From Enterobacter pseudoroggenkampii (GTDB lineage Bacteria; Pseudomonadota; Gammaproteobacteria; Enterobacterales; Enterobacteriaceae), in assembly GCF_026420145.1 (NCBI RefSeq), contig NZ_JAPMLV010000001.1, positions 496,001 to 560,000 of the forward strand: a stretch of 64,000 bases of DNA. Reading direction: 5' to 3'. Position 1 is the stretch's first letter. Each line of letters opens with the position of its first letter. The notes beneath the pieces were generated by a model that made no database searches, was not told the origin of the DNA, and saw nothing but the letters and a program-made list of their open reading frames with translations. Below are positions 54,006 to 58,538 of this stretch, piece after piece. A program made the translations under genes and the position numbers.

Positions 54006-54024
54006 TTTCATTCGAAAGTAAAAG
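54006..54024. promoter_or_regulatory. Shared operator-like motif, site A (ybiU)
   Basis: TTTCATTCGAAAGTAAAAG, identical over 19 bp to site B at 55024 and over 16 bp to site C at 58521. The dyad is CTTTC-ATTC-GAAAG. It lies between the probable ybiU promoter and the ybiU start, a repressor-like position. Confidence 0.75.
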
Positions 54025-54111
54025 TGTCTGCAAGTGATACTTTAAGTTAAAATTAAGTTAATGCAAGTTTAAAAACTTGACGCAAGCCACAGGACGGAAA
54101 AAGAGTGAGAG

Positions 54112-54130
54112 GCCGGAGCCAGGCTCCGGC
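54112..54130 (-). terminator. Probable terminator of ybiV
   Basis: GCCGGAG and CTCCGGC pair closely around CCAGG, 11 bp past the ybiV stop. On the minus strand a CTTTTTCC tract follows about ten bases later, so termination may be weak. Confidence 0.55.
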
Positions 54131-54140
54131 GAGGAGAGGA

Positions 54141-54956
54141 TCAGGCGTCGAACGGGGAGTGGTTGTCGAGCACGGCCTGAATGACGTTCAGCGCGCCCTG
54201 ATGGTTGTTGTCGTCGGTGCTGTAGCGGCTGATTTCTTTGATGCGTTCCGCCGCGTTGCCCATCGCAAAGGAATATTTCACCAGCTTCAGCATCTCGGCA
54301 TCGTTGCCGCTGTCGCCAATGGCCACGCACTCCTGCGGGGAGATTTTCCAGCGCTTCAGCAGACGGCTGATGCCGTTGGCTTTGTGCAGGCCGGGGATAA
54401 TCAAATCCACAAAACCAAAGCCGCTGGTGACGGGCTTCATGATGCCGTCCAGGGAGACGTGCAGCTTATCCACCAGATTAGGGATATCGCTGTCCGGCAG
54501 GTTCAGGGAGAACTTAAACAGCACGTCGTCAATTTCACGGTAATCGCTGATGCGCTTTAAGCGGTGGTAGTGCTTTGACATCAGCGCCACGAACGCTTCA
54601 GGGGCTTTGTCGCTCACGTATGCGCTCTCCAGCCCGCAGGCCACGAAGTTCAGCCCTTTATCTTTCAGCAGTTCGCCAATCACGATCTGCGATTCATGGC
54701 GGGTCAGCTCGCCGTGAAAAATTTGCTCCCCGCGATCGAACACCAGCGCGCCGTTTTCCGCCACGAAGGAGATCCTGTCTTTCAGCTCCGGAAAGAAGGA
54801 GATGAGCTGGTAATACTGATTGCCGCTGGCGACAACGAATTCAATGTCGCGGGCTTTAAGCTGCTCAAACTGTGCCTGGAAGCGGTCACGATCGTACTGC
54901 TTGGCATCATCAAGAAAAGTTCCGTCCATATCGGTGACGATAACTTTAACGGTCAT
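54141..54956 (-). CDS. ybiV: HAD-family sugar phosphatase YbiV
   Basis: 271-aa Cof-type HAD phosphatase; E. coli YbiV (SupH) hydrolyses sugar phosphates such as ribose-5-phosphate and fructose-1-phosphate in vitro. Nucleophile motif DMDGT (D9 and D11), the ASGNQYYQL motif II, the type IIB cap, and GDSGNDAEML with metal-binding Asp residues are present. Start ATG 54956 is chosen by the match to the E. coli length and start (MxVKVIVTDMDGTF); an in-frame ATG at 54989 is rejected. Site B lies 68-86 bp upstream. Confidence 0.94.
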   Translation of the reverse strand: MTVKVIVTDMDGTFLDDAKQYDRDRFQAQFEQLKARDIEFVVASGNQYYQLISFFPELKDRISFVAENGALVFDRGEQIFHGELTRHESQIVIGELLKDKGLNFVACGLESAYVSDKAPEAFVALMSKHYHRLKRISDYREIDDVLFKFSLNLPDSDIPNLVDKLHVSLDGIMKPVTSGFGFVDLIIPGLHKANGISRLLKRWKISPQECVAIGDSGNDAEMLKLVKYSFAMGNAAERIKEISRYSTDDNNHQGALNVIQAVLDNHSPFDA

Positions 54957-55023
54957 ACTGTGCTCCTGGGTCACTGCGTTTTGAAACATTCTAATAACAA
55001 GGTGACGGGGAGCACAAATTTAA

Positions 55024-57582: not shown

Positions 57583-57586
57583 AAGT

Positions 57587-58486
57587 TTATCCTCGTAAGG
57601 TCGCGGTTAACCCTTTCTGGCAGGCGTACTGTTGCGCGAAGTCCAGCAGGGCAGGGTTATCCAGCGGTTTGTCAGGGGCAGAGTAGGGTTGGCCGAGCAG
57701 GGTGTATTTGTTCATGCCCAGCGTGTGATACGGCAGAAAATGAATATCGTCGACGCCGAGTTCGTCGGCGGCGAAGTTGGTGATGGCGGTGATGGAGGCT
57801 TCATCGGCGTTAAAGCCCTGGATCAGCGGCACGCGGATGGTGATTTTTTTCCCGGCAGCGGCCAGGCGTTTCAGGTTGTCCAGGATGCGCTTAGCCGAAC
57901 CGTCCGTCCACTGTTTGAACACGTCACCGTCGACGTGCTTCAGGTCGGAGAGGAACAGATCGACGTAGGGTAATGACGGCTCGATATAGTGCCACGGCAC
58001 GTGAAGGCAGGTTTCGACGGCGGTGTGGATCCCGTGTTCGTGGCTGGCTTTAAACAGGGCCTGTGCCAGCTCGGGGTTCATAAACGGCTCGCCGCCGGAG
58101 AGGGTGATCCCGCCGCCGCTGCGGTCGTAGAAGGGTTTGTCGCGCAGTACGGTCGCCATGATCTCCTCGACCTGCTGCTCTTCACCGCAGACGGTCAGCG
58201 CCTGCGTCGGGCAGCAGTCGGTAAGGGCATTAAGCGTCTCTTCATTCAGCTTTTCGCGGTGGATGACTAGGCCATTCAGCGCGCGTTCGATACAGTCCGG
58301 TGCCGCCTGCTGGCACAGGTCGCAGCCGTCCAGGCACAGGCGTGCATCAAACAGCACGTCCCGGCTGCGGGAGCGGCTTTCCGGATTCTGGCACCAGCGA
58401 CAGCCCAGCGAGCAGCCTTTCAGGAACACCACGGTTCGAATGCCGGGACCATCGTGGGTAGAGTAACGCTGAATATTGAAGATCAT
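57587..58486 (-). CDS. ybiY: Glycyl radical enzyme activating protein YbiY (PflE)
   Basis: 299-aa radical SAM activase that makes the glycyl radical on YbiW. The radical SAM motif CSLGCRWC gives C25, C29 and C32. An inserted ferredoxin-like region (DARLCLDGCDLC... and TDCCPTQALTVCG) would bind two further 4Fe-4S clusters, as in activases of the glycerol dehydratase and benzylsuccinate synthase type. SGGEPF is also present. Start ATG 58486 gives the family N-terminus MIFNIQRYSTHDGPGIR; an ATG at 58501 is rejected. First gene of ybiYW, under an FNR-like promoter. Confidence 0.94.
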   Translation of the reverse strand: MIFNIQRYSTHDGPGIRTVVFLKGCSLGCRWCQNPESRSRSRDVLFDARLCLDGCDLCQQAAPDCIERALNGLVIHREKLNEETLNALTDCCPTQALTVCGEEQQVEEIMATVLRDKPFYDRSGGGITLSGGEPFMNPELAQALFKASHEHGIHTAVETCLHVPWHYIEPSLPYVDLFLSDLKHVDGDVFKQWTDGSAKRILDNLKRLAAAGKKITIRVPLIQGFNADEASITAITNFAADELGVDDIHFLPYHTLGMNKYTLLGQPYSAPDKPLDNPALLDFAQQYACQKGLTATLRG

Positions 58487-58514
58487 GATTTCGCCTCTCA
58501 TCTTGCATATGAAG

Positions 58515-58520
58515 ATTAAA
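58515..58520 (-). promoter_or_regulatory. Putative -10 element of the ybiYW promoter
   Basis: TTTAAT on the minus strand, one mismatch from TATAAT. Its placement gives a start near 58508, about 41.5 bp from the centre of the FNR-like box, the class II activation distance. Confidence 0.55.
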
Positions 58521-58538
58521 TTACTTTCGAATGAAAGT
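58521..58538. promoter_or_regulatory. Shared operator-like motif, site C (ybiY-fsaA)
   Basis: The best dyad of the three sites: ACTTTC-GAAT-GAAAGT (58523-58538). Its reverse complement carries the core TTTCATTCGAAAGTAA found at sites A and B. It lies between the FNR-like box and the -10 of ybiYW and 77-94 bp upstream of fsaA. Confidence 0.78.

Follow-up and report, generated by a model that had tools for sequence, protein, structure and literature searches.

The window analysed here is a 64,000-nucleotide stretch of the Enterobacter pseudoroggenkampii genome (contig NZ_JAPMLV010000001.1, positions 496,001 to 560,000). It contains the genes ybiU, ybiV, ybiW and ybiY on the reverse strand and the divergently oriented fsaA, and their control regions share one operator-like motif, present at three sites termed A, B and C. 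The DeoR-family protein YciT is the most likely regulator of these sites. The genes and the control elements are, in window coordinates:

52735–53991, reverse strand: ybiU, DUF1479/Gig2-like protein in which H201-x-D203 and H343 are invariant
54004–54019: site A, putative YciT operator of ybiU, TCTTTC-ATTC-GAAAGT, 13–28 bases 5′ of the ATG at 53991
54141–54956, reverse strand: ybiV, sugar phosphatase of the HAD family (Cof-type)
55022–55037: site B, putative YciT operator of ybiV, AATTTC-ATTC-GAAAGT, 66–81 bases 5′ of the ATG at 54956
55150–57582, reverse strand: ybiW, glycyl radical enzyme
57587–58486, reverse strand: ybiY, glycyl-radical-enzyme activating radical SAM protein
58515–58520, reverse strand: putative –10 element of ybiY, TTTAAT, read by eye with an inferred start point
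58523–58538: site C, putative YciT operator between ybiY and fsaA, perfect dyad ACTTTC-GAAT-GAAAGT
58543–58556, reverse strand: FNR-type box, read on this strand as TTGAC-CTGC-ATCAA, lying upstream of site C at a centre-to-centre distance of 19 bp
58615–59277, forward strand: fsaA, fructose-6-phosphate aldolase

Three copies of one motif in the control regions

The 16-mer TTTCATTCGAAAGTAA occurs exactly three times, at 54006–54021 (+), 55024–55039 (+) and 58521–58536 (–), and a search of the 64-kb window at up to three mismatches revealed no further copy. Shuffled versions of the window contained 0.32 matches on average, and none of 100 shuffles reached three. Given the positions of the start codons of ybiU (ATG at 53991), ybiV (ATG at 54956), ybiY (ATG at 58486) and fsaA (ATG at 58615), all three sites are non-coding. 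Coordinates, shuffles and start codons thus bear out the first-pass annotation, a description made from the DNA letters, in its claim that the motif is present in three copies and only in control regions. The 19 bp that it found to be common to the ybiU and ybiV sites (TTTCATTCGAAAGTAAAAG) are confirmed by reading the window, and its clean dyad ACTTTC-N4-GAAAGT at site C is indeed there, at 58523–58538. This 16-bp dyad is the underlying unit, perfect at site C and with one mismatch each at sites A and B. Taken alone it is weaker evidence than the 16-mer: the window holds five dyads at up to two mismatches, and 3 of 100 shuffles equal that number.

Conservation of the sites

In E. coli K-12, sites are present at the orthologous ybiY, ybiV and ybiU promoters with 0, 2 and 2 dyad mismatches, respectively, and the core TTTCATTCGAAA is exact in all three. 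Within the genus of the window strain, 35 of 36 genomes contain two to four matches to the 16-mer at up to one mismatch, exactly three in 32 of them; the single genome without a match is 86% complete. By their coordinates, nearly all of these matches lie inside the cluster, with one clear outlier (in genome G034); this comparison covers the genomes whose matches are not split over contigs. A search of related genomes for the core, which had been suggested as a check, therefore finds it nearly confined to the cluster in same-genus genomes, and conservation at orthologous promoters holds in E. coli as well as in other genera. Across the order, 72 of 394 genomes have a match to the 16-mer. The centre of the site varies (ATTT, GTTC, AGAT) with the half-sites ACTTTC and GAAAGT retained. 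Because the same E. coli promoters carry sites and at least two matches are present in 35 of the 36 same-genus genomes, we regard the three motifs as operators and not as copies of a repeat.

YciT as the regulator

A single regulator for ybiU, ybiV, ybiYW and fsaA had been postulated without a name being put to it, together with some resemblance of the motif to DeoR-family sites. The data support one common regulator, and the resemblance was apt: YciT, a DeoR-family protein, has been mapped to these promoters in E. coli. Chromatin immunoprecipitation with exonuclease treatment (ChIP-exo) gave YciT peaks upstream of ybiUVWY and fsaA, expression of ybiV, ybiY and fsaA was altered in a yciT deletion strain, and the YciT motif was described as palindromic (Gao et al. 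2021, PMC8464067). DNA affinity capture followed by mass spectrometry, an experiment proposed for site C, has already been carried out with the ybiYW promoter of E. coli, where it enriched YciT (2025 preprint, PMC12132413). Based on these two experiments, with independent support from gene context, the regulator of the three sites is most likely YciT, encoded elsewhere on the chromosome.

A YciT homologue (E ≤ 1e-40) was found in 69 of the 394 genomes of the order. Site and YciT occur together in 45 genomes, the site only in 27, YciT only in 24 and neither in 298 (Fisher 4e-23, uncorrected for kinship). By rough arithmetic assuming equal base frequencies, about 30 of the 325 genomes lacking YciT would match by chance, and 27 do. 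In the genomes with YciT, 23 of 74 sites, from 22 genomes, are located within 10 kb of yciT, compared with ∼0.005 expected per site. In many fetched loci from several families and genera, yciT is the last gene of the arrangement fsaA-[site]-ybiY-ybiW-yciT.

A scan of named genomes for YciT, in which the best 80 of 566 relatives were analysed, showed ybiY-ybiW beside yciT in 21 of the 80 loci, and 17 of these 21 operons are located at osmB-yciH-pyrF. Bearers of the latter arrangement include Buttiauxella, Cedecea, Franconibacter, Shimwellia, Serratia, Rahnella and one record named “Enterobacter sp. R1(2018)”. E. coli and the other Citrobacter, Enterobacter, Klebsiella and Kosakonia records among the 80 carry yciT at the same spot without ybiY-ybiW. 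The recognition-helix core VT[IV]R.DL is present in all 42 YciT rows. All six same-genus genomes of the 394-genome sample encode YciT, 79–81% identical to the E. coli protein.

Dyads also occur upstream of yciT itself, at up to two mismatches in 7 of 42 rows. In the family coded f2, a lone yciT has a perfect dyad shortly 5′ of its start in four fetched loci, at 50 bp in the two that were measured. Matches in this family (up to one mismatch) that lie away from yciT, in L040–L047, L050–L052 and L072, adjoin no cluster genes and were taken as chance. Dyads ACTTTCGTTTGAAAGC and ACTTTCGTTTGAAACT are found ∼0.5–2.5 kb upstream of lone yciT genes in Escherichia-like genomes (L144:6476, L146:4469, G383:C13:80144). 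All three sampled genomes of the genus coded g31 share a second site away from the cluster, ATTTTCATTCGAAAGT (L054, L056, G176:C65:31453), which may be a further YciT target. In two loci (L105 and L116, from G404 and G138), two YciT-like genes, possibly encoding paralogous regulators, flank one ybiYW region. One record titled Chryseobacterium (L182) shows an enterobacterial rnb-pdeR-yciT-osmB-yciH-pyrF region and is probably mislabelled or contaminated.

Architecture of the ybiY and ybiU promoters

FNR recognizes sequences of the type TTGAT-N4-ATCAA. By the criterion TTGAY-N4-RTCAA with up to one mismatch, 33 of the 40 regions preceding ybiY contain an FNR-type box; its centre precedes the best dyad by 19 bp in 32 regions and by 18 bp in one. 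A longer stretch of locus L114 adds a further box, again at 19 bp, so that 34 of the 40 promoters have one. Among the named ybiY promoters, a set overlapping in species with the first, the box is present in 21 of 21 (with one mismatch in eight), and in 19 of them the dyad located at 19 bp shows no more than two mismatches. In the family coded f27 (L105, L106, L115, L116, L125), a CRP-like sequence TGTGA-N6-TCACA, perfect in three loci and with one mismatch in two, replaces the FNR-type box at, as judged by eye, the same 19 bp; the ybiY promoter of L119 shows neither box.

If FNR is assumed to bind at –41.5, as at class II FNR-activated promoters, the operator would be centred at –22.5 and TTTAAT would extend from –12 to –7, in the window and in E. 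coli alike. At ybiU, site A follows a promoter-like pair TTGCAT/TAAAGT by ∼19 bp, and in the ybiU leaders of eight loci the operator is found ∼19 bp after a TTGCAT...TAAAGT/TATATT-like pair. A scan of positions 53950–58700 with the σ70 consensus found no promoter-like pair, and the hexamers named here were read by eye. An operator between an activator box and the –10 element, or downstream of the transcriptional start, is in the position of a repressor site. Since site C lies between the FNR-type box and the likely –10 element, and site A after the likely start, we infer that YciT represses both promoters.

In E. coli, the ybiYW start was active under anaerobic conditions and, apart from these, in a single replicate with ampicillin; relative to the predicted start, YciT was placed at about –5 and an unassigned activator at about –20 (PMC12132413). 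The FNR-type box fits this activator, and the aerobic lysates used in that study may be the reason why FNR was not captured. No paper in the open-access library was found to mention ybiY, FNR and anaerobiosis together, supplementary tables and subscription papers lying outside this search.

A CRP-like sequence was also observed at ybiV: TGTG(C/G)-N6-TCAC(A/C), as judged by the CRP-type consensus, lies 3′ of site B (55001–55016 in the window) and is found in eight of the eight ybiV leaders compared.

Model of regulation and alternative explanations

Taken together, the three motifs are very probably YciT repressor operators, YciT being encoded elsewhere and ybiYW being controlled by both FNR and a ligand. 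According to this model, YciT would act as a DeoR-family repressor; its gene lies by osmB in the genus-mates. In the absence of oxygen, FNR would activate ybiYW, and YciT bound at ybiY would block RNA polymerase for as long as the ligand, probably 1,5-anhydroglucitol-6-phosphate, is missing. At ybiU, binding of YciT just downstream of the likely start point would result in repression.

Several points weigh against this model. In the 24-kb E. coli stretch, 3 of 100 shuffles also reach three dyads at up to three mismatches, so the site count alone is weak there and the position of the sites is the telling point. The passages considered from Gao et al. name ybiV, ybiY and fsaA and no separate ybiU peak, and they report 49 YciT sites, including ybiO, cusF and ompX, a regulon far wider than the genes considered here; YciT has also been placed at phnA (PMC7567609). 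The published motif, given as a figure and described as palindromic, may match the dyad. Furthermore, no site within one mismatch is present in 24 of the 69 genomes with YciT. In 2 of the 21 named ybiY promoters (L204 and L213) the sequence at the 19-bp position departs from the dyad by four mismatches, and in 6 of the 40 even the best dyad has three to four. Finally, yciT is not part of the 64-kb window, its presence in this strain being expected from the genus-mates, and no such site was found in the 12 kb around yciT of E. coli K-12, for which autoregulation was rejected on this basis.

Would a dispersed repeat, or mere chance recurrence, account for the motif equally well? Dyads relaxed to one mismatch and a free centre are indeed at chance level genome-wide, with 7–24 per genome compared with 6–21 for the reversed control (16 genomes); the dyad alone therefore does not define a site, and in its relaxed form it was unusable as a genome-wide predictor. 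The full core, however, is nearly restricted to the cluster in same-genus genomes and is found again at these promoters in E. coli and in further genera, and the sites are co-located with yciT, which makes a repeat or chance extremely improbable. Another candidate comes from the neighborhood. The first-pass annotation was wrong in stating that the cluster lacks a regulator gene: one of the LacI family, at 51665–52738 (+), is convergent with ybiU. As a DNA-binding protein of a sugar-responsive family encoded next to ybiU, its product could bind the three sites and regulate the cluster locally. Relatives of this gene are found beside ybiU in L061, L065, L066 and L071. In E. coli, L058 and L067, which also bear the sites, no relative turned up next to ybiU; the intergenic region of the LacI-family gene itself has no dyad at up to two mismatches, and the gene is accompanied instead by those for an MFS transporter and a GH31 glycosidase (L061, L066 and L071; in L065 the sequence stops behind the transporter). 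We therefore consider regulation by the LacI-family neighbor very unlikely and rejected it by presence and absence.

YciT could also bind the sites and act mainly as an activator or as a dual regulator. E. coli YciT is annotated as a dual regulator in RefSeq, and the passages considered from PMC8464067 report the effect of YciT without a direction, which also weakens the repressor model. Against this stand the location of the ybiY site, flanked by the activator box on one side and the likely –10 element on the other, and that of the ybiU site downstream of the likely start, both relative to predicted start points. We regard activation or dual control as improbable and retain the repressor model.

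In the window, the LacI-family gene forms part of a sugar cassette adjoining ybiU (47694–52738), which consists of this regulator, an MFS transporter and a GH31 glycosidase. The cassette likewise adjoins ybiU in L061, L066, L071 and, as far as the stretch extends, L065, and it was not found at this place in E. coli, L058 and L067.

Different histories of yciT and ybiYW-fsaA

In a tree of 66 YciT rows, E. coli and its relatives, whose yciT stands alone, fall together with Buttiauxella, Cedecea, Franconibacter and Shimwellia, in which YciT is encoded within the operon. This clade comprises 28 rows (support 99/99), with lone and operon-borne rows mixed inside it; long branches were flagged in this tree, including the Rouxiella row, whose placement is unsure. 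YbiW encoded at the moeB locus (E. coli and Enterobacter kin, seven rows) groups with Prodigiosinella and Rouxiella, with supports of 100/99 and 100/100 in two trees, and is separate from the osmB-locus YbiW of Enterobacteriaceae. A forced union of the two Enterobacteriaceae groups was rejected by the approximately unbiased test for both YbiW (p-AU 2.5e-5) and FsaA (p-AU 1.1e-5), values that are optimistic because the grouping was chosen with the first YbiW tree already in view. No second YbiW (at least 70% identity) was found in the moeB-locus genomes tested. A plain relocation of ybiYW-fsaA from osmB to moeB is not borne out by the trees.

The histories of regulator and target thus differ. 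They indicate that E. coli and Enterobacter kept their native YciT, with a ybiYW-fsaA of a different lineage at another locus. We propose that the native operon beside yciT was lost and that the other-lineage copy at moeB would have been taken over by the resident YciT because it carried the same operator. An old duplication with opposite losses would be the alternative to such an operon exchange. If the exchange is true, a resident regulator keeps its job while its target operon is replaced.

Function of the regulon and a possible role of YbiU

E. coli YbiW is reported to cleave 1,5-anhydroglucitol-6-phosphate to 1-deoxyfructose-6-phosphate under anaerobic conditions (2025 review, PMC12441222). 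Two YbiW structures are deposited in the PDB (8id7 and 8yjn). Ma et al. are said to have described the breakdown of anhydroglucitol by YbiW and FsaA, the latter reportedly catalyzing the aldolase step. A sugar phosphate is a typical ligand of DeoR-family regulators. No joint mention of YciT and anhydroglucitol was found among the matches listed in the open-access literature, supplementary material and subscription papers lying outside it.

Among 72 genomes that were searched, YciT is encoded by 69, of which 48 also have a YbiW of at least 70% identity. In 5 of the 21 YciT genomes without a YbiW orthologue (G061, G133, G244, G263, G292), a ybiU of 67–71% identity is located directly beside yciT, divergently in G244. 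A dyad at up to two mismatches precedes ybiU in three of the five loci (L060, L121, L126) and is not found there in L109 and L127. The remaining 16 have no YbiU at E ≤ 1e-40. Nine further genomes contain a YbiU relative of 47–50% identity away from yciT, which is neutral for the role of YbiU. In Pantoea latae (L220, among the best 80 of 566 relatives), the gene order is ybiV-ybiU-yciT. All 11 YbiU rows compared retain H201, D203 and H343, and H-x-D...H is the pattern of iron/2-oxoglutarate oxygenases.

Based on the proximity of ybiU to yciT in genomes without YbiW and on the invariant H/D/H residues, this suggests that YbiU may provide an oxygen-using route for the same sugar phosphate. In the review on anhydroglucitol, the aerobic enzyme for 1,5-anhydroglucitol-6-phosphate remains to be identified (PMC12441222). 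Elsewhere, ybiU has been proposed for a reaction forming deoxythymidine monophosphate (PMC3423039) or appears, in the passage considered, only as a neighbor of ybiT (PMC7660256); the passages considered from PMC5493296, PMC4072538 and PMC11748552 contain nothing decisive.

A tentative and rather doubtful extension of the model would combine these elements: YciT would sense 1,5-anhydroglucitol-6-phosphate and open two routes chosen by oxygen, one via FNR-dependent YbiW and FsaA, the other via a YbiU oxygenase that hydroxylates C1 to yield glucose-6-phosphate, with the other-lineage operon at moeB adopted by the native YciT. If the part on YbiU is true, it would be the aerobic enzyme for a compound that accumulates in two human neutropenias (PMC12441222).

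Comparison with known systems

Spacing of the FNR-type box, exchange of the operon and adjacency of yciT and ybiU were not found in the open-access literature searched, which does not cover supplementary and subscription material. The YciT regulon gains a defined operator, a likely second input (oxygen via FNR) and a likely signal, which makes a poorly understood regulator testable.

The regulon described here is closest to the YciT regulon of E. coli K-12 (PMC8464067), with which it shares the promoters of ybiV, ybiY and fsaA, a DeoR-family regulator and a palindromic motif. The E. coli study has its own features in the 49 sites and in a link of YciT to osmolarity, whereas our analysis adds an explicit 16-bp operator, a separate site at ybiU, conservation across genera, the spacing to the FNR-type box and the gene history. 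The ybiYW footprint (PMC12132413) likewise has YciT near the predicted start, anaerobic activity and an unassigned activator roughly 15 bp 5′ of the YciT site; that study found no candidate for this activator, whereas the present analysis places the centre of a conserved FNR-type box 19 bp 5′ of the operator. The breakdown of anhydroglucitol (PMC12441222) involves the same glycyl radical enzyme as this regulon, and the relevant passages of the review name no regulator and mention neither YbiU nor YbiV. The core of the YciT regulon in E. coli was known already; the operator definition, the putative ybiU site, the FNR spacing, the proposed exchange of the operon and the possible role of YbiU are contributed by this analysis.

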